Translations under genes and position numbers: made by a program
The notes under the pieces: model-generated
What the model was told of the DNA's origin: nothing
The model's input: the letters and a program-made list of their open reading frames with translations, nothing else
Databases searched by the model: none
NCBI GenBank assembly: GCA_030446945.1
Contig: JAUJMI010000056.1
Coordinates: 1 to 12,532, forward strand
DNA: 12,532 nt
Direction of reading: 5' to 3'
Source: Longimicrobium sp.
Lineage (GTDB): Bacteria; Gemmatimonadota; Gemmatimonadetes; Longimicrobiales; Longimicrobiaceae
Part shown: one piece after another, positions 1 through 12,532 of the stretch
Numbering within the stretch: position 1 is the first letter of the stretch
How the letters are laid out: each line of letters opens with the position of its first letter

Positions 1-73
1 TGCCGTGGTCCACGTGCCCGATCGTGCCGACGTTCACGTGCGGCTTGTTGCGCTCAAACTTGGCCTTGGCCAT
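1..73 (-). CDS. tuf: Elongation factor Tu, N-terminal fragment (runs off the window)
   Basis: EF-Tu is the cytoplasmic GTPase that delivers aminoacyl-tRNA to the ribosome. Only the first 24 codons are present. They read [20 protein letters not shown] followed by VDHG, which is the characteristic EF-Tu start leading into the GHVDHGKT P-loop (G1). The ATG at 73..71 gives the standard N-terminus, and an AGGA about ten bases upstream is a plausible weak ribosome binding site. The gene follows fusA as in a normal str operon. However, a terminator (428..460) and a separate promoter (320..348) lie between the two genes, so tuf is probably expressed as its own unit. The rest of the gene lies beyond base 1. 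Confidence 0.95.
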
Positions 74-313
74 TGGTTTGAATCCTGGTACCTGATGAGT
101 TTTGATGGCTGATTGGATTCCGCCCCGGCGCCATGCGGCGCGCGTGGGGCTGTCGAACCGCCTCAGCCGCGAACCGGGCGGCGAGCCGCCCGCGAGCACG
201 GGTCCCAAGAACAGCAAACCTCGCCGCGTCACTTGCTGCGGCAAGGTGTCCGGGTGCCGGCTTCCTCATTCCGCCATTCCCGGCGCGCAAAGCGCGTCCC
301 GGAGCGGGACAAG
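74..313 (-). other. Predicted long 5' leader of tuf
   Basis: From the start site predicted at about 313 to the tuf ATG there are about 240 nt without a convincing ORF. The region contains short self-complementary stretches such as GCGC-TTT-GCGC. It also has a GGTTCGA segment that looks like a T-loop, but the flanks do not pair as a tRNA T-arm. No known riboswitch or tRNA is recognised. A leader of this length could carry growth-rate or EF-Tu-level control, but nothing in the sequence proves it. Confidence 0.4.
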
Positions 314-319
314 ACGAGA

Positions 320-348
320 AGAATAGCCCCGAAGCCCCAAACCGTCAA
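320..348 (-). promoter_or_regulatory. Sigma-70-type promoter for tuf
   Basis: On the minus strand TTGACG (348..343) is followed by a 17-base spacer and TATTCT (325..320). The -35 matches the consensus TTGACA in 5 of 6 positions. The -10 matches in 4 of 6 and keeps the key TA...T bases. The spacing is ideal. It lies just downstream of the fusA terminator and upstream of tuf, so it offers tuf an independent transcript starting near 313. Confidence 0.72.
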
Positions 349-427
349 GTGCCACGGGGGTTGTGTACCTTATGTTTCCGGCGCGACACCGGCACCGATT
401 GCCTCACGCGGAGACGCCCTGCAGTTG

Positions 428-460
428 AAAAGGGCGGCCCCCGTGGAGGGCCGCCCTTTT
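428..460 (-). terminator. Intrinsic terminator after fusA
   Basis: There is a perfect 13-bp inverted repeat. The arms AAAAGGGCGGCCC (428..440) and GGGCCGCCCTTTT (448..460) flank a 7-base loop. In the minus-strand transcript the stem is G+C rich and ends in a U-run, beginning about 22 bases after the fusA stop. The flanking A and T runs make it symmetrical, so it could work in both directions. It separates rpsL-rpsG-fusA from tuf. Confidence 0.88.
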
Positions 461-481
461 CGCGAGACTGCAAGAGGATGC

Positions 482-2578
<2,097 letters not shown>

Positions 2579-2610
2579 GATTCGTCTTATCCAGTTACGC
2601 AGAAGCGCGG

Positions 2611-2643
2611 GGCGCGGGGACGGAGCGTTCCGCCCACCGCGCC
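2611..2643 (-). other. Stable stem-loop in the rpsG-fusA spacer
   Basis: The arms GGCGCGG (2611..2617) and CCGCGCC (2637..2643) are perfectly complementary. They enclose a second inner stem, CGGA/TCCG, with a 4-base loop. There is no U-run, so it is not an obvious terminator. It lies within the 105-base spacer upstream of fusA and could protect the message or modulate fusA translation. Its function is not known. Confidence 0.5.
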
Positions 2644-2683
2644 GCCGCGGGTCCTGACACCGTTTTGGTTGACCAGCGGTTGG

Positions 2684-3154
2684 CTACCAGCGGTAGTGCG
2701 CGAAGGCCTTGTTCGCTTCCGCCATGCGGTGCGTGTCGTCCTTCTTCTTGATGGTCGCGCCCTCGTTGCGGGACGCGGCCAGAAGCTCGGCGGCAAGGCG
2801 GTCGGCCATCGTCTTCTCGCCGCGGGCGCGGGCATAGCCCACCAGCCAGCGCATGGCGAGGGCGGTGCGCCGCTCCGGCCGCACCTCCACCGGCACCTGG
2901 TAGGTGGCGCCGCCCACGCGGCGGCTCTTCACCTCGAGGACCGGCTTGGCGTTGTTGAGCGCGGTCTTGAAGACCGTCTCCCCCGGCTGCCCGGAGCGCT
3001 CTTCCACAACCTTCATGGCGTCGTAGAAGATCCCCTCGGCGGTGGACTTCTTCCCGTCGCGCATCAGCGTGTTGACGAACTTCGTGACCGAGTCGCTCCC
3101 GAAGACCGGATCCGGGATGATCGGGCGCTTGACAGCGCGATTTCTGCGGCTCAT
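2684..3154 (-). CDS. rpsG: 30S ribosomal protein S7
   Basis: S7 is a primary 16S rRNA-binding protein that nucleates assembly of the 30S head and lies near the exit site. The 156-residue product has the standard short-form length. It starts [20 protein letters not shown] and has the conserved segments [29 protein letters not shown] and ALRWLV-like [14 protein letters not shown]. It ends [10 protein letters not shown]. The start is fixed by the overlap with rpsL: the upstream TAA and this ATG share one A (TAATG), which implies coupled translation. A GGGAGG ribosome binding site about nine bases upstream lies inside the rpsL coding sequence. The stop is TAG, which shows that amber is used as a normal terminator in this genome. 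Confidence 0.98.
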
Positions 3155-3579
3155 TAGCGCTTCCCTCCCTTGCCCTTGACCGGAGCGCCCTTCCCCGCGG
3201 CGGCGCCCGCCTTGGGCTTCTTGGCACCGTACTTGGAACGGCCCTGGCGGCGGTCGTTGACCCCGGAGGCGTCGAGCGTGCCGCGGATGATGTGGTAGCG
3301 GACGCCCGGCAGGTCCTTCACACGGCCGCCGCGGATGAGCACGATGCTGTGCTCCTGCAGGTTGTGCCCCTCGCCAGGGATGTACGCCGTCACCTCGAAG
3401 CCGTTCGTCAGCCGGACGCGCGCGACCTTCCGGAGGGCCGAGTTGGGCTTCTTCGGGGTCGTGGTGTACACGCGCGTGCAGACCCCGCGCTTCTGCGGGT
3501 TGTTCCGCATCGCGGGCGACTTGCTCTTGTTGACGAGCGTCTGGCGCCCCTTGCGGACCAGCTGATTGATCGTCGGCAT
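3154..3579 (-). CDS. rpsL: 30S ribosomal protein S12
   Basis: S12 sits at the decoding centre and controls translational accuracy. The product starting [20 protein letters not shown] has 141 residues. The 12 residues that could be added upstream are not part of the family, so the ATG at 3579 is chosen. The two streptomycin-relevant loops are wild type: TTPKKPNS with Lys43, and [10 protein letters not shown] with Lys88 and Asp89 (the usual methylthiolated Asp). These suggest no ribosomal streptomycin resistance. The family core ends near KKPKA at 124, and a lysine/glycine-rich tail of 17 residues follows. The 3' end of that tail encodes the ribosome binding site of rpsG, and its stop overlaps the rpsG start. 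No clear Shine-Dalgarno sequence is seen upstream of this first gene of the str operon. Confidence 0.97.
3155..3169 (-). promoter_or_regulatory. rpsG ribosome binding site inside the rpsL 3' end
   Basis: On the minus strand GGGAGG (3169..3164) lies nine bases before the rpsG ATG, within the last codons of rpsL. Together with the TAATG stop/start overlap it predicts tight translational coupling of S12 and S7. Confidence 0.7.
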
Positions 3580-3672
3580 ACTTGAAAGCGAAGGTAGACG
3601 AAAACGCAAAAACACTGGCGAAGGCCGCTGGCCCCGCCGCCGCGAACCAAAAAGTTGCGCGACAGACTGGAA

Positions 3673-4098: not shown

Positions 4099-5976
4099 TT
4101 ACCGTCCCAGCCAGTAGGTCGCCTTGACGACGAAGACGTTGCGGGCCGGGGCGCGGAAGACCTCGCCGGCGTCGCGGCCGAAGTCGAGGGTGCCGACCGA
4201 GTCGAAGCCGTCGCGCTGCTGCTGCCACACGAAGAAGAGGGCCGAACCGGGACGGTACTCCCAGCGCAGTACCGCATTGCCGCGCAGCGAGCGGGCGTTG
4301 AAGTCGCGCTCGCCGAAGGCGAAGCAGCCGGCCGCGCCCGCGCCGTCGGGGTCCACCAGGTAGCTGGTGCCGGGGCCGGAGGGATTGGCGCAGCTCTCGC
4401 CGCGGGTGATGGTGCCGCCATCGCGGCCGTACACGCCGAAGTCGTACGTGCGGGGACGCAGCAGCTCCTTGAAGTCGCTGTAGTCGCCCACCGCCACGAA
4501 AGGCTGCGCGAAGAGCTGCAGCGAAAGGCGCGGCGTAAAGGTCCAGTCCAGCCGCGTCTCCATCGAAATCGTCGTCTGGTCGATGTCCGCGAAGACGTAG
4601 CGGCGCCCGAACGTCTCGGTGGCGAGCGCGTCCTCCACCGTGCGGACATACTGCGCGGTGCCGATCTCGTGCTCCAGGTTCGGGCTCAGGCGCAGGCGGA
4701 TCGCGCTGGACGGACGATAGCTCATCGACACGCCGCCCCAGCGGGAGCTGCCGCCCGCGTCGCGGTGCACGTAGCCGGTGTTGGCGCCGAAGGAGACCCG
4801 CTTGCGCTGGTCCGTCTCCACCCAGCCGGAGACCTCGCGGCGGCCCGGGTTGCGCGAGAGGGGACCGCCGCGCGTCAGGCGGTCGTCGGAGGTCCAGGGG
4901 CGGTAGCCCAGGTTGGCGCCCGCGCTCCAGAAGTTCCTGAAGGTGCCGTTGGCGCCCACCGCGCCGCCATTCAGGATCACGTCGCCGCCGAAGTTCCAGG
5001 CGTGGTACGTGTAGCCGAAGTACGAGTGGTTTCGAAAATTCCCCCGGGGCTCGTTCACGCGGCGGCCCAGAAAGGTGGTGAAGGAACGGTAGTCCGTGCG
5101 CCCCTGGAAACCCAGGTCGTTCACCTCGAATCCGGGGCTCATCTCCTTGAGGTCCAGCGACAGGTCCCAGTCGCCGCTCCGCTGGATGGCGGCCTCGGCG
5201 ATGTGCCCGCTGAGCGAGGTGCGCGTGGGGTCCAGCGTCAGGTAGTCGGCGTCCGGGCGGTCGTAGTAACGGGCGCTGGAGCGCTGCGCCGCGGCGATCA
5301 CGTCCTGGCTCCCCGCGACGCGGGTGGCGGCCAGGTAGCCGGACACCTTCCACTTCCGGTTGGACCAGCTGTGCTCGCCGTCCACGCCGCCAAAGAGTGC
5401 GCGCGAGCGGAGGAGCGGATGGAAGGCGTCGTCGCTCATGTCGCGGTGCGTGGCCGTGAGCATGCTCCCCACCACGGTGCGCCCGCCCCGCATCTCCCGG
5501 CGGACGCGGCTCACGAAGTAGTTGGTCAGCGGCTCCACGGCGGCGGTCTGCCGCTCCCCGTCGGCGGTGACGAAGCGCGCCTTCTCGGCGGAGGTGACGG
5601 CGTCCATGATCCCCAGCGTCCAGGGGCCCACTTTGCCGCTCACCTTGCCGGCGCCGAGGATGGTGGACTGGCTGGGGACGTCGGTGAAGCGGATGGCCGC
5701 GCCGGAGAGACGGCGCTGCGGCTCGCGGCCGATGCGGCGGGAGTAGAAGTACTGCTGGAAGCCGTAGTTGTTGAAGGTCCCCACCTGCCCGAAGCGGAAG
5801 ACGTCGCTCCCCTCCACGAAGAAGGGGCGCTTCTCCGGGAAGAAGGTCTCGAAGGCGCTCAGGTTCACCACCGCCGGGTCCACTTCCACCTGCCCGAAGT
5901 CGGGGTTGACGGTGCCGGTGAGGGTGAGGCCGGAGGTGATCCCCAGCTTGAAGTCGGCGCCGGCGGAGAGGCCCAC
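4099..5976 (-). CDS. C-terminal part of interrupted DUF5916 barrel protein (paralogue A)
   Basis: This frame carries the DUF5916 part of the protein whose N-terminus lies at 5986..6789. Translated from an in-frame GTG it gives 625 residues and ends in VVKATYWLGR with TAA. It begins in the family's conserved block, with TVNPDFGQVEVDP, LSAFETFFPEKRPFFVEG, FYSRRIG and STILGAGK. Many alternating polar and apolar strands follow, as expected for an outer-membrane barrel. All of these match the intact paralogue at 7001..9619. It has no signal peptide of its own and no ribosome binding site before the GTG, so independent expression as a functional surface protein is unlikely. The stretch is well preserved with no further frameshift or stop. 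It continues in the same reading frame as the upstream part and is divided from it by a single TAG. Confidence 0.8.
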   Translation of the reverse strand: MGLSAGADFKLGITSGLTLTGTVNPDFGQVEVDPAVVNLSAFETFFPEKRPFFVEGSDVFRFGQVGTFNNYGFQQYFYSRRIGREPQRRLSGAAIRFTDVPSQSTILGAGKVSGKVGPWTLGIMDAVTSAEKARFVTADGERQTAAVEPLTNYFVSRVRREMRGGRTVVGSMLTATHRDMSDDAFHPLLRSRALFGGVDGEHSWSNRKWKVSGYLAATRVAGSQDVIAAAQRSSARYYDRPDADYLTLDPTRTSLSGHIAEAAIQRSGDWDLSLDLKEMSPGFEVNDLGFQGRTDYRSFTTFLGRRVNEPRGNFRNHSYFGYTYHAWNFGGDVILNGGAVGANGTFRNFWSAGANLGYRPWTSDDRLTRGGPLSRNPGRREVSGWVETDQRKRVSFGANTGYVHRDAGGSSRWGGVSMSYRPSSAIRLRLSPNLEHEIGTAQYVRTVEDALATETFGRRYVFADIDQTTISMETRLDWTFTPRLSLQLFAQPFVAVGDYSDFKELLRPRTYDFGVYGRDGGTITRGESCANPSGPGTSYLVDPDGAGAAGCFAFGERDFNARSLRGNAVLRWEYRPGSALFFVWQQQRDGFDSVGTLDFGRDAGEVFRAPARNVFVVKATYWLGR

Positions 5977-5985
5977 GTCGTTGGA

Positions 5986-6789
5986 CTAGTAGAACGGGTT
6001 GTCCGCGTCGCCCGGCTCGCGGGTAAGGCGGTTGCTGACGTACGGCAGGAGCTCGGCGCGGCGCACGGGGCGGATGCCGGCCAGCCCCGTCACGCTGCCG
6101 AAGCGCGAAACGTAGCCCGCGTCGGCGCGCGACCAGGGGGACCACGAGGCGCGCTCGTCGCGGCGGGCGATGTCGCGCTGCACCTGCAGGCCCCACACGC
6201 GCCCGCCCGCCGGCTCCGGTCCGGTGAAGCGGATCTGCGAGAGCGGGATGCGGAACTCGGCCGTCCATCCCGCCGAGTCTACCCGAGTGGCGGACTGCCA
6301 CACCGCGTCCCAGTTCAGGTCCTCTCCCGTGTCGTTGGAGTGGTAGACGTCCTTTTGGACGTTGCGCGGGTTCACCGAGAAGCGGAAGCCGGTGCGGCGG
6401 TCGTGGTACGAGTCCAGCGCCACGTGCACCCAGTCCGAGTAGATCCCGCTGGCGTCGCGCCGGGCCAGTTGCGCCGCGATGGAGTCGGGGCGGGAGTCGA
6501 ACATCCGCACCCCCACGTAGATGGCGTCGTCCGAGTACAGCACCCGTGCCTCCGTGCGCTCGGTGGGCGGGGCGCCGGCGTTGGGATACGACTGGGTGAA
6601 GTTGGCGGCCGCTTCGGCGGCGACCCAGGCCGCCTCGTCCAGCCGGCCGTCGATCTCGATGCTGCCGGCGACGCGTGCGGCGCGCACGGAGCGGGTCGCC
6701 GTGGCGCGCGCGCTGTCCGCGGGGGTCTGCGCGGGGGCCGGTTGCGCCAGCAGGGCGGCGGCGCAGAGCAGGATCAGACGGCGGTGCAT
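5986..6789 (-). CDS. N-terminal part of interrupted DUF5916/CBM9-like secreted protein (paralogue A)
   Basis: The 267-residue product starts with a clear signal peptide: two Arg, the hydrophobic LILLCAAALLAQ, and a likely cleavage after APA near residue 20. A CBM9-like domain follows at about 40-230, recognisable from EIDGRLDEAAW, PPTERTEARVLY, DDAIYVGVRMFD, LDSYHDRRTGFRFSVNP and WTAEFRIPLSQIRF. The linker RRAELLPYVSN then leads towards the barrel, where the frame stops at TAG. An AAAGG about seven bases upstream of the ATG can serve as ribosome binding site. As it stands the product would be an exported domain without its outer-membrane part. Family members usually have both parts, about 800-900 residues, and their substrate is not known. 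It lies 211 bases after the intact paralogue B, with which it shares the mature start QTPADSARA. Confidence 0.82.
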   Translation of the reverse strand: MHRRLILLCAAALLAQPAPAQTPADSARATATRSVRAARVAGSIEIDGRLDEAAWVAAEAAANFTQSYPNAGAPPTERTEARVLYSDDAIYVGVRMFDSRPDSIAAQLARRDASGIYSDWVHVALDSYHDRRTGFRFSVNPRNVQKDVYHSNDTGEDLNWDAVWQSATRVDSAGWTAEFRIPLSQIRFTGPEPAGGRVWGLQVQRDIARRDERASWSPWSRADAGYVSRFGSVTGLAGIRPVRRAELLPYVSNRLTREPGDADNPFY

Positions 6790-7000: not shown

Positions 7001-9619
7001 TCAACGGAGCGGCAGCCAGTAAGTGACTTTGAGGGCGAGAATGTTATCACCCGCCGTGTTGAGCGTTTCCAGCAGATCGCCGGGGCCCACGATGCTTCCC
7101 TCCCGCTCGCGCGCGAAGCGGTCCTGCTGCCAAACGGCGAAGAGGGTGCTTCCCGGCCGCCATTCCCAGCGCAGGACGGCGTTGCTGCGGAAGGAGCGGA
7201 CGTTGAAGTCGCGCGGCGCGATGGTGAACGCGGAGGTGCCCTCCGTCACCCGCAGCGTGCCGTCTTCCAGCGTGTCCACCGTGCCGTAGCGGCGCAATTC
7301 GCGGCTGCGCGCCGCCGGCAGCTCGCCGAAGTCGTGGTAGCGCCCGCTGGCCGCAAAGGGCTCCGCGTATCCCTCCAGCGACAGGTCGGGGGTGAACGAG
7401 TAGGTCAGCCGCAGCTGCGTGGTGAAGGTGCTCCGGTCGATGGTGGAGAAGACGTACCGCCTGCCGAAAGTGGCGTCGCCGCCGCCCGGACGCGTGGTGA
7501 CGTACTGGCGCGGGTTCGTGCTCCGCAGGTAGTTGGGCGTCATCGAGAAGCGCCAGCGCGGGCTGGGGCGCATCGAATAGCTGGAGAGGAGGCGGTAGGT
7601 GCGCTCTCCCAGCTCGCTCTCGCCGTAGTAGATGCGGCCTCGGAGCCGCGTACTCGACGCGGAGTTGTTGAACACGTCCACGATCGTGACCCACGCCTGC
7701 CCCGTCCCCATCAGCGGCCCGCCGCGCGTGAGATCGTCACTCTGCGAGCGCAGGTCCACCCACCCCGTGAGCAGCGTCTCCCAGTAATTCTTGAAGGTCA
7801 GCCGCGTGTCGGTGCGCAGCGCCGAGAAGTTCCTCACCGCGCCGAAGTTCCACAGGTTCTCGGTGGAGAGCGACATGGAGTAGCTGCGCAGGTACGGCCC
7901 CGGCTGCGTCTCGCGGTACCGGACGCGCGCGAAGCCGAAGACGTCGTCCGCGGTGCCCTGCGCGCCCGCGTCGTTGACCTCGAAGCCGGGGGAGGTGGCG
8001 CTGAGGGAGGCGTTGAAAAGCCAGTGGCGGCCACTGTTGCGCGCCACCCCCAGGGAGCCCGTCCAACCGGCGAGGGCGGTGCGCAGCGGGTCCAGGCGCA
8101 CGTGGTCCGCGTCCGGCCGGGCGAAGTAGCGCGCGCTGGAGAGTTGCGTGCCCAGGAGCGCAGCGGAGTCGCCGGCCACGTAGCTGAAGCCCAGGTAGCC
8201 GTTCAACGAGTACTCGCCCCCCTTGAAGCGCAGGTTCCAGTCGGCGCCGCCCGCGAACGCCTGCCGGTGGAGGAGCTCCGCCAGCGAGCTCTCCGAGTCC
8301 AGCGCCCGCCCCACGCCGGTGAAGCTGACGCCCGCGGTGGACTGCGCCTTCCCGAACTGCCGCTGCACGCGCGCCACGCCGAACGCCGTGGTGGGAGCGA
8401 TGGCCACCCGCTGGAACTCGCCGCTCCCGGTGGTGAAGGTGCGCGCGTGCTCCCTGCCCGTGACCGCCGCCAGCACACCCATGGAGGTGCCGCCGCGCAG
8501 CCGCCCCGTCAGCTTCCCCGCGCCGAGGATGGTGCTGGTGCCGGGGAAGTCCACGAAGTCGCCCGCCGCGTCGCCCGACGGCGCCGCGCCGATGCGGCGG
8601 GAGTAGAAGTACTCCGGCCCCCTGCCCGCCAGGAGCTGGCGCCCCTCGATGAAGAAGGGGCGCCGCTCCGCGAAAAACGTCTCGAAGGCGGACAGGTTCA
8701 CCTCCGCCGGGTCGGCTTCCACCTGGCCGAAATCCGGATTGACGGTCGCCTCCAGCGTCAGCGCGGGCCCCAACCCCATCTTGAGGTCGCCGCCGACGCG
8801 CGCTTCCAGGCTGCTTCCGTCATCGAAGGGATTCCCCGCGCCCGGGGCGGCGTGGAACGTGCCCCCGGCGGCCACGTACGGCATCAGCTCCACGCGACGC
8901 GAGGGGCGCACTCCCTCGATCCCCACCAGGTCGCCGAAGCGCGAGGCCCACGCCCGCTCCTGGCTGGGGATGGGGACCCAGAACACGTCCTCCTTGGTGG
9001 CCGGGTTCCAGCGGTCCAGGTTGAGCCCCCAGCGCTGCACGGAGCCCGCGGTGAAGCGGAGCTGCGAGAAGGGGATCCGCATCTCCGCCGTCCACCCCAG
9101 CGAGTCGCGGGCGACGCGCGCCGTCCACACGGGGTCGAACGATGCGTCCGTGTCGTTCTCGTCGTCGGTGGGATGGTACCAGTCGATGCGCGTGCCGGCC
9201 GCCGTGACGCCGAAGCTGTACGCCGTGCGCCGGTCCAGGTAGGTGTCCAGCGAGATCCACAGATGTTCCGCCTGGTTGCCGTCGTCGCGGCGGCTGACCG
9301 GGGCCTGGATGGAACGCGGGTCGTTCTTGTGCATCCGCGCGCCCACGTACAGCGCCTCCGCGTCGTACACGAACCGGACTTCGGTACGCTCGGTGGGCTC
9401 GGCGCCCTCCTTCGGCTGCTTCTGCACGAAGTCGCTGAGGACGGGCGCCAGCGCCCACGCCGCGTCGTCCAGCCGCCCGTCGAGCACGGGCGAGGCGCCG
9501 GTTACGCGCACCGCTCGCGCCTCCTTGCGACCGGCGCGTGCGCTGTCGGCCGGCGTCTGCGCGAGGGCGGGCGCCGCCAGCACCAGCGCGCAGGCCATAG
9601 TCGCAAGACGGAAGATCAT
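7001..9619 (-). CDS. DUF5916 outer-membrane-type protein with CBM9-like domain (paralogue B, intact)
   Basis: This 872-residue protein has a signal peptide (MIFRLATMACALVLAAPALA, cleavage before QTPADSARA). Next comes a CBM9-like domain at about 40-225 (VLDGRLDDAAW, EPTERTEVRFVYD, ALYVGARM, ISLDTYLDRRTAYSFGV, WTAEMRIPFSQLRF). A DUF5916 domain follows, with TVNPDFGQVEADP, LSAFETFFAERRPFFIEG, EYFYSRRIG and TSTILGAGKLTG. It ends with numerous beta-strand-like segments, finishing ALKVTYWLPLR. This architecture is known in Bacteroidota and Gemmatimonadota; no enzyme activity is established, and a surface barrel that binds or handles carbohydrate-like ligands is an inference. The ATG overlaps the TGA of the upstream gene as ATGA, which argues for translational coupling with the secreted repeat protein. 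No frame defects are seen. It is the likely origin or sibling of the broken copy downstream. Confidence 0.9.
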   Translation of the reverse strand: MIFRLATMACALVLAAPALAQTPADSARAGRKEARAVRVTGASPVLDGRLDDAAWALAPVLSDFVQKQPKEGAEPTERTEVRFVYDAEALYVGARMHKNDPRSIQAPVSRRDDGNQAEHLWISLDTYLDRRTAYSFGVTAAGTRIDWYHPTDDENDTDASFDPVWTARVARDSLGWTAEMRIPFSQLRFTAGSVQRWGLNLDRWNPATKEDVFWVPIPSQERAWASRFGDLVGIEGVRPSRRVELMPYVAAGGTFHAAPGAGNPFDDGSSLEARVGGDLKMGLGPALTLEATVNPDFGQVEADPAEVNLSAFETFFAERRPFFIEGRQLLAGRGPEYFYSRRIGAAPSGDAAGDFVDFPGTSTILGAGKLTGRLRGGTSMGVLAAVTGREHARTFTTGSGEFQRVAIAPTTAFGVARVQRQFGKAQSTAGVSFTGVGRALDSESSLAELLHRQAFAGGADWNLRFKGGEYSLNGYLGFSYVAGDSAALLGTQLSSARYFARPDADHVRLDPLRTALAGWTGSLGVARNSGRHWLFNASLSATSPGFEVNDAGAQGTADDVFGFARVRYRETQPGPYLRSYSMSLSTENLWNFGAVRNFSALRTDTRLTFKNYWETLLTGWVDLRSQSDDLTRGGPLMGTGQAWVTIVDVFNNSASSTRLRGRIYYGESELGERTYRLLSSYSMRPSPRWRFSMTPNYLRSTNPRQYVTTRPGGGDATFGRRYVFSTIDRSTFTTQLRLTYSFTPDLSLEGYAEPFAASGRYHDFGELPAARSRELRRYGTVDTLEDGTLRVTEGTSAFTIAPRDFNVRSFRSNAVLRWEWRPGSTLFAVWQQDRFAREREGSIVGPGDLLETLNTAGDNILALKVTYWLPLR

Positions 9620-10641
9620 CGGCCGCTTCGGGCCTGGTGGCGAAGGACAAGCGAGCGTTCCGCGTCGGATCCGATGCTGCGGGTGGCGTCCATGAAGGCG
9701 CGGGAGACGCCGTCATCCTCCAGCCGCGCGACGGGCACCCGCGTCAGCACCAGCCGCTTCTCCACGTCCGAGCCGATGCGTTGCGTGGAGCGCAGCGCGG
9801 CGAGGAGCACCGCGCGCGACGGCGTCTCGCGGCGTACGAGCGACGAGAGGACGAGCCGCCGCTCCACGTCGGAGTCCATCCCGTCGAGCGCGGCGAAGAA
9901 GGCCTGGCGCACGGCCGCGTCGTCCAGCGAGTGGCCGGCGACGACCCGGCTCAGCACCAGGCGCGTCTCGACGTCGGAACCGAGGGTCCCCGCCGCCTCC
10001 AGGAGCGAGGCCAGCCGCCCGCCGCGCGCCGAGCCCATGGCCCCGATCAGCACCAGCCGCTTCTCCACGTCCGAGCGGATGCGGGAGACGTCGCGGAGGG
10101 CGTGCGCGAACTCGTCGTCGCGGAGCGGGTCGCCGCGGAAGAGGGCGCCGAAGTACTGCCGCCTGCCGACGTCGCTGCGGATGCGCCCGATCTCCTCCAG
10201 CACCCCGCCCACACCGCGCCGCGCCCGGACGCGCGCCACCCGCCGGTCCGCGCCGAGCCCGCCCTCGCGCGCCGCGTGGCCCAGCGTGCGGCGGACCCAC
10301 GCCTGCCCTTCGGCGTCCATTGCGCGCTCCCGACCGTCGACGAAGTACAGTACGCGCACGCCGCTCCCGTCCGGCCGGAACTCCGCGCGCCGCTCGGGCC
10401 CGCGCCCCTCCTCCTCCACCACCAGGCGCCCGCCCGAGGGAAGCGACTCCACCCAGTCGCCCTCGTCGTTGAGCTCCACCTCGCCGGTCGCGCGGATCTC
10501 CAGCCGGTGCCCGTCGTCGATGGAAATGTGGGTCCACTGGCCATTGTGCACGTTCACGCTGCGCTGCTGCGAGGCGCCGGGCGTGGCGACAAGCGCCAGC
10601 AGCAGCGCGCCGCAGCTCAGGTGCAGGGTCGTTCGGGGCAT
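9616..10641 (-). CDS. Secreted repeat protein: beta domain plus six SDVEKRLVL-type 34-residue repeats
   Basis: I do not recognise a named family. The ATG at 10641 is chosen because it has GGAGGAAA five bases upstream and begins a signal peptide (MPRTTLHLSCGALLLALVAT, cleavage near GAS-QQ). Longer upstream starts add implausible sequence. The mature protein of the 341-residue product has a beta-rich module at about 28-124 (HRLEIRATGEVELN, GGRLVVEE, VRVLYFVDGRERAM, GQAWVRRTLG). Six helical repeats with cores at residues 156, 190, 222, 257, 291 and 325 follow, of the form SDVExRLVL and spaced 32-35 residues. The same two modules occur in opposite order in the tail of the M56 peptidase upstream. 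The TGA overlaps the start of the DUF5916 gene. A scaffold or ligand for the sensor at the cell surface is a guess from this sharing. Operator-like repeats lie in front of the gene. Confidence 0.85.
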   Translation of the reverse strand: MPRTTLHLSCGALLLALVATPGASQQRSVNVHNGQWTHISIDDGHRLEIRATGEVELNDEGDWVESLPSGGRLVVEEEGRGPERRAEFRPDGSGVRVLYFVDGRERAMDAEGQAWVRRTLGHAAREGGLGADRRVARVRARRGVGGVLEEIGRIRSDVGRRQYFGALFRGDPLRDDEFAHALRDVSRIRSDVEKRLVLIGAMGSARGGRLASLLEAAGTLGSDVETRLVLSRVVAGHSLDDAAVRQAFFAALDGMDSDVERRLVLSSLVRRETPSRAVLLAALRSTQRIGSDVEKRLVLTRVPVARLEDDGVSRAFMDATRSIGSDAERSLVLRHQARSGR

Positions 10642-10665
10642 CGTTTCCTCCGGTTTGGGCGGCTC

Positions 10666-10687
10666 AAGTGTTGAAATTTCAGCACTT
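10666..10687. promoter_or_regulatory. 22-base near-perfect palindrome before the secreted repeat-protein gene
   Basis: The arms AAGTGTTGAAA (10666..10676) and TTTCAGCACTT (10677..10687) are complementary except for one pair. It lies 24 bases upstream of the start codon, just before the ribosome binding site. This fits an operator overlapping the promoter or early leader. The binding protein is not identifiable. Confidence 0.5.
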
Positions 10688-10690
10688 CCC

Positions 10691-10715
10691 ATCGTACAAC
10701 TCGGCAATCGTACAA
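10691..10715. promoter_or_regulatory. Two direct copies of TTGTACGAT (candidate regulator boxes)
   Basis: ATCGTACAA occurs at 10691..10699 and again at 10707..10715 on the plus strand, with a 16-base period. The second copy runs into TACAATGT, which resembles the TACA/TGTA half-sites bound by BlaI/MecI repressors. Each copy could also act as a weak -35 (TTGTAC). Because an M56 BlaR1-type gene lies directly upstream, a BlaI-type operator is plausible, but no blaI-like gene is visible in the window. Confidence 0.42.
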
Positions 10716-10721
10716 TGTCTC

Positions 10722-10913
10722 TGTCATGCTGGCGTAAGCGCCGCTGCGCCCCCTGCCCTGCCCCGTCACCATGGCGCGGAGCGAGGAATCTACTACGCAT
10801 TCCTAGGGGCCGGCTCGTAGCGCTGCCCTCTCGCCTGGCCGGCTAGATCCTTCGGCCGCCGCCACGCTCCTGAGGAGGCGCCGTCATTCGCGGGGCGGCT
10901 CTCTGGGATGACA
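10722..10913. repeat. Candidate nonautonomous intergenic repeat with TGTCAT/ATGACA ends
   Basis: The 192-base stretch begins TGTCAT (10722..10727) and ends ATGACA (10908..10913), giving inverted ends. Read on the minus strand it contains TTGTCATCCCAGAG, CCGAAGGATCTAG and TAGTAGATTCCTCGCTCCGC. These are phrases I associate from memory with a dispersed intergenic repeat of Longimicrobium-like genomes. It fills most of the gap between the M56 gene and the secreted repeat-protein gene, contains no credible ORF and has no U-run terminator. Confidence 0.5.
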
Positions 10914-10921
10914 AATCCTCG

Positions 10922-12532
10922 TCAGCGGGCGCGGGCGAGGACGCCCGCGAGCCAGGCGCGGCCTTCGCCACCGAACGCGCGCTCGGCGCCGTTCACGCGG
11001 TAGGTGCGGACCAGCCCGCCATCGGGGCCGCGGCGCACGGCCAGGCTGCGGGTGACCGAGGCGCCGGACTTGCCGGTGAGCAGCGGGTCCGGATCCGGAG
11101 AGCCGCCGTGCAGGGTGTGGTCGATCTCGAGCATGCCGCCGGCGAGCACCTCGGCCACGTCGGTCCCTGCGCGGTTCAGGCGGACGTTGCGCGCGCGAAC
11201 TCGCAGTTCGAACGCGCGCCGGCCATTGTGATCGCCATTCAGCTCGATGCTGGTGTTCCACACTCCTCCGCCCGACGCCGCGGCGCGGGGCGCGGGCGGG
11301 GGAGAAGGCGCAGCGGGCGCGGCCGGCGGGTTCGGCGCGGAGCGGCCCAGCAGCGCGGAGAGCGCCAGTCGCCGCTCCGTCTCCGAGCCGATGCTGTTCA
11401 CCGCGGCCAGGTAGGCCTCGCGCGCGGGGCCCGCGATCGGCTGGAGCTCGGCGGCCGAGGCGAGCACGAACCGCTTCTCCGTGTCCGACCCCATTTTGGA
11501 AGCGGTGCGGAGGAGCGCCGCGAGCGAAGCGGCGTCGGGGCGGAGCTTCTCCATCACCGAGACGATGACAAAGCGCTCCTCGGTGGACGATGCGAAGCTC
11601 TCCAGCACGTCGTGCAACGTCCGTGGGATCGTCCCGCCGAGCGCGCGGTGCGCAACCGCATCGATCAGAACCAGGCGGCGGTCGGTTTCGGAGGAGATGG
11701 TGCGGGCGGCCTCGATGATCGCGAGGACGTGCTCGCGCCGCAGATCGCTTCGCTCCAGCAACTCCGTCAGCACCATCCGCCGCTCGGTGGATGACTTGGT
11801 GCCCGCGGCCATGCGAATGATGTCGTCGTACAGATCCGCGCCGCGCGGCTGCTGGATGGCTTCCATCATCTCGCTCACCGTGGCGGCCGCCGGAACCGCC
11901 GGCGGCGGCGGTTGCTGCGGCGGGACGGGCGGATTGAACACCGATGGCTCCGGCTGCGCTGCCGGGGCGCTAACCGGTGTGGCGGCGCGCATCGCGGCCA
12001 CCGGAGCGGGCACCTGGGCAGGCCCAAAGGTGCGCACGACCGGCGTCACGACACGCGCGGAAACCCTGGAGAGCGGCTCGCCGACGGCGTGCTGTGCGGG
12101 GCTCAGCGCCGCGAGCGGGACGATGCACGCCGCGCCCGCCGCCATCGTCCCCAGCAGGACGGCGCGGCCCACGCCAGTGCGCGGCACAGCGGCGTCCAGG
12201 ATGGCCAGGAGGCGCCCCTCGAACTGGGAGCGGCGCGCCATCGCCAGCGCCGCGGCGGGGCCGGACGCGTTGCCAAGTGAGCGCACGATGTCCAGCAGGT
12301 GGTCCGCGTACTCTGCCGGCCGCGCGCCGAGGGCGAGCACGGCATCGTCGCACGCCTGCTCGCGCTCCTGGCGCAGGCGGCCCGCGGCGGCCCACACCAG
12401 CGGGTTGTACCAGTGCACCGCCACCGCCAGGTGCGCGATCCACTGCGTAAGCGCGTCCCAGCGGCGGATGTGCGCCAACTCGTGCGCCAGCACGACGGTG
12501 CGCCGCTCCTCGCTCCATTCGTCGGCTTCGGC
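10922..12532 (-). CDS. M56 (BlaR1-like) membrane metallopeptidase with repeat-bearing extracytoplasmic tail (5' end missing)
   Basis: The frame is open to the window edge and 536 residues are visible, so the N-terminal membrane helices lie outside. Numbering below is by visible residue. The zinc motif HELAH is at 17-21 and EREQACDDAVL at 56-66 should supply the third ligand. RRSQFEGRLLAILD at 100-113 is typical of the M56 family. A membrane segment follows at about 123-143 and a Pro/Ala-rich linker to about 218. Five repeats with cores at 247, 281, 315, 349 and 383 come next, exactly 34 residues apart (for example GSDTEKRFVL). After a second Pro-rich linker the C-terminal beta domain at about 425-536 resembles the N-terminal domain of the 9616..10641 product. 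M56 proteins such as BlaR1 and MecR1 sense an external signal and cleave a cytoplasmic repressor. Here a non-penicillin-binding sensor tail is implied. The repressor partner should lie upstream, outside the window. Confidence 0.88.
   Translation of the reverse strand, partial: AEADEWSEERRTVVLAHELAHIRRWDALTQWIAHLAVAVHWYNPLVWAAAGRLRQEREQACDDAVLALGARPAEYADHLLDIVRSLGNASGPAAALAMARRSQFEGRLLAILDAAVPRTGVGRAVLLGTMAAGAACIVPLAALSPAQHAVGEPLSRVSARVVTPVVRTFGPAQVPAPVAAMRAATPVSAPAAQPEPSVFNPPVPPQQPPPPAVPAAATVSEMMEAIQQPRGADLYDDIIRMAAGTKSSTERRMVLTELLERSDLRREHVLAIIEAARTISSETDRRLVLIDAVAHRALGGTIPRTLHDVLESFASSTEERFVIVSVMEKLRPDAASLAALLRTASKMGSDTEKRFVLASAAELQPIAGPAREAYLAAVNSIGSETERRLALSALLGRSAPNPPAAPAAPSPPPAPRAAASGGGVWNTSIELNGDHNGRRAFELRVRARNVRLNRAGTDVAEVLAGGMLEIDHTLHGGSPDPDPLLTGKSGASVTRSLAVRRGPDGGLVRTYRVNGAERAFGGEGRAWLAGVLARAR

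Follow-up and report, generated by a model that had tools for sequence, protein, structure and literature searches.

A probable BlaI-M56 sensor locus in Longimicrobium whose secreted neighbor is built from the modules of the sensor tail

The window analyzed here is one whole contig of 12532 bases (C67 of genome G000) from a Longimicrobium draft genome of 3.7 Mb that is 86% complete. Its minus strand carries, in order of transcription, the C-terminal part of a BlaR1-type M56 metallopeptidase gene (the sensor), a 280-base gap, a gene for a secreted protein with a signal peptide, and a gene for a DUF5916 protein, whose ATG overlaps the stop codon of the secreted gene (ATGA). All named relatives of the M56 fragment and of the secreted protein come from Longimicrobium or Longimicrobiaceae. 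The features, in window coordinates, are as follows.

12470..12484, minus strand: HExxH zinc-protease motif (HELAH) of the M56 protein, read from the sequence.
12098..12169, minus strand: last membrane-spanning stretch of the M56 protein, from the hydropathy of three full-length genus homologues.
10925..12532, minus strand: C-terminal 536 residues of a BlaR1-type M56 metallopeptidase (PF05569, E 2.6e-22), the N-terminal part being lost at the contig end.
11345..11794, minus strand: five 34-residue helical repeats of the sensor tail (BLASTP, motif spacing, profiles, model).
10928..11263, minus strand: C-terminal beta domain (beta') of the sensor tail (profile alignment, model, own tree branch).
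10666..10687, minus strand: palindromic candidate operator AAGTGCTGAAATTTCAACACTT, 24 bases ahead of the secreted gene's ATG.
9616..10641, minus strand: secreted free-tail gene, 341 amino acids, with signal peptide, beta domain, helical cap and repeats (sequence, profiles, model).
10273..10566, minus strand: beta domain of the secreted protein, including its closing helix (profiles, model).
10105..10269, minus strand: conserved helical cap K of the secreted protein (profiles, model), not found in the window's M56 tail.
9631..10074, minus strand: helical repeats of the secreted protein (BLASTP, motif spacing, model).
7001..9619, minus strand: DUF5916 protein (PF19313, E 2.5e-55) with a CBM9-like N-terminus (CBM9 below cut-off).

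The beta domain and the repeats are common to the sensor tail and its secreted neighbor far beyond chance, as the original prediction, made from the sequence of the window, had held. For the repeats, BLASTP of the two proteins gave 65.1 bits (E 6e-16) with 32% identity over 167 residues. The predicted repeat numbers agreed with the motif starts: five in the M56 tail, 34 residues apart (247, 281, 315, 349, 383), and six in the secreted protein, where five starts are spaced by 32 to 35 residues (192, 224, 259, 293, 327) and SDVGRR at 158 makes the sixth. BLASTP returned only a single 34-residue piece for the beta domains (E 8e-5), and hhalign of the two beta-domain family profiles aligned them with a probability of 99.1, an E value of 3.9e-19 and a score of 102 over 82 columns, the top score among 60 column-shuffled controls being 18.5. 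The residue pairs by which the prediction had matched the beta domains are in register in this profile alignment. Predicted structures of the beta regions, whose comparison the prediction had proposed, pointed the same way at the level of secondary structure, as two AlphaFold models made from separate alignments had equal secondary-structure states at 71 of the 82 aligned positions, with no clash of strand and helix. Neither shared module carries a Pfam or NCBIfam name in either protein.

A second line of evidence links the two genes by regulation. Ahead of blaI lies the palindrome GTGCTGAWWWTTCAGCAC, which recurs 24 bases upstream of the secreted gene. The BlaI gene, identified through PF03965 matches in two relatives, stands upstream of M56 in nine of ten genus genomes, the tenth being that of the window, where this part is cut off; the palindrome occurs on both the blaI side and the secreted-gene side in all ten. 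For the window's genome, the blaI-side copy is found where contig G000:C423 ends, in a stretch of 91 bases that shares 89% identity with the G006 blaI promoter; in G007, this copy is on C279 with blaI and the N-terminal half of M56. Before blaI, the relatives mostly have a tandem pair, 18 bases apart. At a score of at least 15 out of 20, we found 40 sites in 13 loci, all of them before blaI, the free gene or DUF5916 except for one inside an M56 gene. Across 16 loci, 77 strand-hits were observed, compared with 1.6 per set of first-order Markov copies. The strict palindrome, with up to two mismatches allowed, occurs 3 to 9 times per whole genus genome, counting both strands, and the reversed pattern gave zero hits in whole-genome scans of the ten. 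Because of its position and its palindromy, we infer that BlaI binds this element. Together with the DUF5916 overlap, the palindromes before blaI and the secreted gene indicate that a BlaI-M56 circuit very probably controls the look-alike of its own sensor.

Similar sites extend beyond the family. A looser palindrome, TGCT(A/G)AWWWWT(T/C)AGCA, occurs near the blaI start in 11 of 14 loci that show blaI; in each of the four loci from other families with a free gene (G235, G194, G121 and G183), it also precedes that gene. The scan for this pattern, run on 15 loci with no shuffle control, missed the free-gene sites of G121 and G183, which were found by later scoring; both reach 15 of 18, the next best in the stretch being 10. 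The looser palindrome also stands at the DUF5916 start in G121 and G114; none was found before DUF5916 in G183.

Extra palindromes, each seen in a single genus genome, are not conserved and were not used as evidence. They precede peptidase genes of the M28 (G000:C13 near 10880-10915), S41 (G006:C128 near 55884) and S15 (G001:C59 near 45167) types, possibly as part of a broader peptidase regulon or as targets of other BlaI paralogues, and, in G009, one lies near a DNA polymerase I gene. At G006:C74 near 47450-47880 (L136), a blaI remnant of 48 residues runs into a weak beta-like stretch, followed by a palindrome and then a TPR gene; this may be what is left of a decayed circuit. Inspection of the sites in G003 C33, G002 C901 and G007 C236 gave no result.

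The pairing of sensor and secreted protein is a regular trait of the genus. A tailed M56 gene is directly followed by a gene encoding beta domain, cap and repeats in ten of ten genus genomes, the window's own included; in this count, the M56 part of G007 is on another contig, the M56 gene of the window is itself cut, and the sensor repeats of G003 fell below the profile threshold yet were matched in a separate search. Two free copies are present in G001. With BlaI in nine of ten genomes and palindromes on both sides in all ten, this adjacency supports the proposal of a BlaR1-type circuit with a self-resembling, co-regulated partner. Among 11 further genomes of the family, G013 has both genes, and so does G014, by beta domain and cap only and with two free copies. 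In G018, a free gene lies at the start of one contig and a cut M56 gene at the end of another, so that the two are not shown joined; G020 holds a frame described below, and the other seven genomes gave no match to the tail.

In a sample of the phylum, at least 47 of 249 genomes matched the tail, a lower bound given that at most seven candidates were scored per genome. Of these 47, nine have a free gene with beta domain, cap and repeats, and in eight of the nine a tailed M56 gene lies directly upstream; in the ninth (G194), the upstream frame, with two beta domains and a repeat, runs off the contig before any M56 becomes visible. G264 and G132 were not judgeable, and G221 and G248 had repeat-only matches. 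The genome survey suggested by the original prediction thus supported one direction of its co-occurrence claim, in that the secreted form sits beside a tailed M56, but not the other, as 15 genomes have a sensor with beta domain, cap and repeats and no twin in the stretch fetched, a point to which we return below.

To describe module order we built local profiles for the beta domain (B), the helical cap (K), the repeat (r) and M56. The resulting counts are biased, each search favoring the order of its own query. Matches to the secreted protein had the order B-K-r in 100 of 102 cases, one of the 102 being the window's own protein. The M56 tail gave 30 new matches: 19 M56-r-B, 5 r-B, 4 B-K-r, 1 M56-r and 1 M56-B-K-r. 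A search with an M56-B-K-r protein gave 119 new proteins among the 120 of 421 matches listed, namely, 112 M56-B-K-r, 4 B-K-r and 3 M56-r-B-K-r; the named sources among the matches listed are Vicinamibacterales and Acidobacteriota bacterium. M56-B-K-r genes, each near a BlaI-like gene, were found in two Acidobacteria metagenome-assembled genomes (MAGs), Bryobacterales, Zixiibacteriota and an unclassified MAG, and M56-B-K-r also occurs in 15 Gemmatimonadota genomes outside the genus. The order B-K-r is thus the one seen across phyla. The secreted protein keeps it, and the Longimicrobium sensor is the odd one, its tail in the window being r-B, without the first beta domain and the cap.

The original prediction had described this difference as a permuted order of two modules. 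The order does differ as described, but a plain swap does not account for it, since the cap is an extra element and beta' forms a branch of its own. When 79 beta domains were placed in a tree, those at the C-terminal end of the sensors were set apart by one branch with a Shimodaira-Hasegawa-like approximate likelihood ratio test (SH-aLRT) value of 95, and we therefore rejected simple circular permutation as the whole explanation. The alignment has 94 columns, flagged as few for 79 rows, and the tree has no bootstrap. The beta' side holds 17 M56 rows, G235 among them, and in addition the cut tail of G007 and the C-terminal domain from the G020 frame; the secreted betas group with the canonical M56-B-K-r tails.

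How the sensor came by its order is suggested by a frame in G020 (61% complete), which reads B-K-r5-B, runs off its contig and is immediately followed by DUF5916; no M56 match was found in that genome. Since loss of B-K from such a tail would yield a sensor of the window's type, the G020 frame may be an unsplit intermediate. Tandem double-beta tails in L116 (G194), L184 (G018) and L170 (G360), that of L184 combining a canonical-type and a beta'-type domain, may likewise represent steps in the origin of beta'. A single origin of all free forms was rejected by approximately unbiased (AU) tests with 31 rows (p 0.011) and 29 rows (p 0.0121); within Gemmatimonadota (22 rows) it was not rejected (p 0.131). 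These tests used quick trees, and the doubtful-label rows G020 and G264 were dropped before the last two. A doubtful but possible scenario would have the free form arise more than once across phyla and the Longimicrobium and G235 sensor tail be rebuilt beside its twin, within a soluble-receptor loop.

As for the sensor itself, the M56 protease domain scored 79.8 bits with PF05569 (cut-off 31), and full-length homologues measure ∼700 to 765 amino acids. A transmembrane-like stretch immediately precedes the tail linker in the three full-length genus homologues examined for hydropathy. By analogy with the topology of BlaR1 (PMC5957439), the tail is expected to lie outside the cytoplasm. The model of the fragment has a mean predicted local distance difference test (pLDDT) value of 68.4, with ten-residue means of 90 to 97 over most repeats and of 57 to 93 over the beta domain; the repeats form helix pairs, mostly at a pLDDT of at least 90. 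A Pfam search of the fragment recognized only the M56 part, with no family above cut-off in the tail, and the NCBIfam model blaR1_generic reached 47.2 of the 400 bits required, its match confined to the protease part. Neither database revealed a C-terminal penicillin-binding (class D-like, SxxK) sensor domain, and a PDB sequence search with the fragment gave no match. In one M56 protein, P0118, beta' runs into an ABC-transporter ATPase, which looks like a chimeric assembly or a gene fusion.

The secreted gene most likely starts at 10641 and not at the upstream ATG of the mechanical open reading frame, because GGAGG precedes this position and a signal peptide follows it. Its product is predicted with a mean pLDDT of 92.9. 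The conserved helical element K covers residues 127-181 and was not detected in the M56 tail by the local profiles. The protein had no Pfam or NCBIfam match at E up to 1. In an alignment of 57 rows (A1), 15 residues among the 11 polar, charged or aromatic types tested are conserved at ≥95%; 9 of the 15 (10 with D159) belong to the repeat motif, as S, D, E or R, and H, C and K are absent from the set, a pattern that fits a binder better than an enzyme. The effector does not look like a beta-lactamase or PBP2a either, the secreted gene being unmatched and the next gene encoding DUF5916. A PDB sequence search brought up CPAP (E 0.5-0.6), which we discarded as chance. A PADLOC search of four proteins gave no match, and Foldseek of both models against the PDB gave no match at E ≤ 0.001. 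The Foldseek VIA lists were taken up by helical solenoids, so that the fold of the beta domain was hardly probed. HEAT/ARM-type alpha-solenoids may be counted among the closest known systems. Four wider relatives and two other-family free genes gave nothing but M56/M48 above the Pfam cut-offs.

We favor the idea that the secreted protein copies the outer end of the sensor in soluble form and would bind the same ligand, acting as a feedback sink or a carrier. The window would then hold the distal part of a BlaI-M56 regulatory circuit. The M56 membrane protease would present an extracytoplasmic binding tail in which an alpha-solenoid is combined with a beta domain; upon ligand binding to this tail, the protease, which by analogy is expected to act on BlaI, would inactivate the repressor. 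Loss of BlaI would free two promoters that have this palindrome in common, one for blaI-M56 and the other for the secreted gene and DUF5916, raising the levels of BlaI-M56, the free tail and DUF5916. The secreted protein, as a free-standing relative of the ancestral sensor tail, would most likely act in the periplasm by binding either the ligand of the sensor or the sensor, thereby damping or shaping the signal. A blaI-M56 circuit with an induced soluble receptor is our best explanation of the locus, held tentatively and at less than even confidence. The fuller version, in which the inducer is sequestered or carried by the secreted copy, or this copy forms a pair with the sensor, DUF5916 is a further output and free forms have multiple origins, is possible but on the doubtful side.

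Several observations weigh against this explanation. Sensor beta' and twin beta are distant branches of the beta tree, and one shared ligand is therefore not a given. The circuit can apparently live without the secreted gene, for that of G009 is broken by stops after the cap (its M56 beta' being the same as in a protein from Longimicrobium terrae); in G005, a second circuit, on C157, comes without a secreted gene. No free twin was seen in the fetched stretches of the 15 genomes (16 loci) with M56-B-K-r, a count that leaves out G062 and G164. Among 199 Acidobacteriota genomes, 26 matched: 4 have M56-B-K-r, 3 have free forms, their fetched 6-10 kb showing no M56 by profile, and in the remaining 19 the match is limited to roughly the first 150 of the 455 model positions, i.e., the beta region. 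No site of score ≥15 was found in two G018 loci and one G020 locus, or before the free gene of G014. Finally, covariation of the repeat motifs of sensor and twin was not significant (p 0.06 and 0.08).

The best-surviving alternative, possible though we would not bet on it, is that the secreted protein is a co-receptor or adaptor which, with DUF5916, collects the ligand at the outer membrane and passes it to the sensor or docks with it via the like modules. It draws on the ATGA overlap in the window and on the presence of a DUF5916 homologue next in line in nine of ten genus genomes, including the window's, the tenth (G002) being cut by the contig end. DUF5916 also follows M56-B-K-r in G263, G217, G114 and G234, with no free twin seen, which makes it look like the more constant output; yet these very circuits, together with that on G005 C157, argue that the free protein is not a required adaptor.

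An unlikely alternative is that sensor and secreted protein share parts and have separate jobs, the modules being a generic periplasmic binding scaffold and the secreted protein a BlaI-controlled product with its own ligand. The scaffold is indeed widespread, 112 of the 119 new relatives among the matches listed being M56-B-K-r, and the Acidobacteriota free forms, the AU rejection of a single origin and the separate branches of beta and beta' all fit. Against it, the Gemmatimonadota free form stands beside a tailed M56 in eight of nine genomes, the ninth being cut, and is in most cases preceded by an operator-like palindrome. That the gene is a functionless leftover of a tandem duplication or gene split, as the degenerate copy in one of ten genus genomes (G009) and the seemingly unsplit G020 frame might suggest, is highly improbable given the full B-K-r layout in 100 of 102 matches, the conserved core residues and the operator-like site ahead of the gene in all ten genus genomes.

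Downstream of the first DUF5916 gene, the window holds a second DUF5916/CBM9 gene (4099-6789) with one in-frame stop (TAG, 5986-5988), which could be an assembly error or a genuine nonsense change; an uninterrupted relative is present in G005 (L034). Directly downstream of the DUF5916 genes, positions 2-3615 carry rpsL, rpsG, fusA and the beginning of tuf, genes of the str operon that were named by eye from the sequence.

The closest known systems are BlaR1-BlaI-BlaZ and MecR1-MecI-MecA of Staphylococcus and Bacillus licheniformis, which likewise have an M56 protease sensor with an outer C-terminal domain, a BlaI-type repressor encoded alongside and operator-like sites before effector and blaI. 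BlaR1 senses outside and its protease domain acts on BlaI inside (PMC5957439, PMC9834060); in BlaR1, too, the sensor domain has homologues, here enzymes, namely, the class D beta-lactamases (PMC5957439). Different from BlaR1 and MecR1, the window's tail combines a beta domain with an alpha-solenoid, without a Pfam name or a detected penicillin-binding domain, and its effector, which lacks an enzyme-like signature, is made of the tail's own modules and followed by DUF5916. Closer in composition are the M56-B-K-r proteins of Acidobacteriota, Zixiibacteriota and Gemmatimonadota, labeled in their sources as M56 family metallopeptidase or beta-lactamase regulating signal transducer, with the same protease, beta domain and repeats and, in the loci examined, a BlaI gene nearby. 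Those are canonical in order and often without a visible free twin, whereas in the window's sensor the first beta domain and the cap are missing and beta' comes last. A literature search returned no paper on the tail, on a twin under a shared operator or on a DUF5916 output. While BlaI-M56 regulation in general is already known, the tail, the twin and the DUF5916 output appear to be new, judging from that search.

To our knowledge, most M56 proteins besides BlaR1 and MecR1 have no known ligand. The locus brings together in one place an unnamed conserved ectodomain, a candidate operator, a candidate regulon (twin and DUF5916) and a natural pair of sensor and free form, making the ligand and the logic of this M56 branch directly testable. 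If the proposed circuit holds true, it would extend the BlaR1/beta-lactamase theme, in which sensor and effector share a fold, to a system whose effector resembles a pure binder. A sensor and its secreted twin under what appears to be the same switch hint at an undescribed kind of feedback or partnership among M56 sensors.

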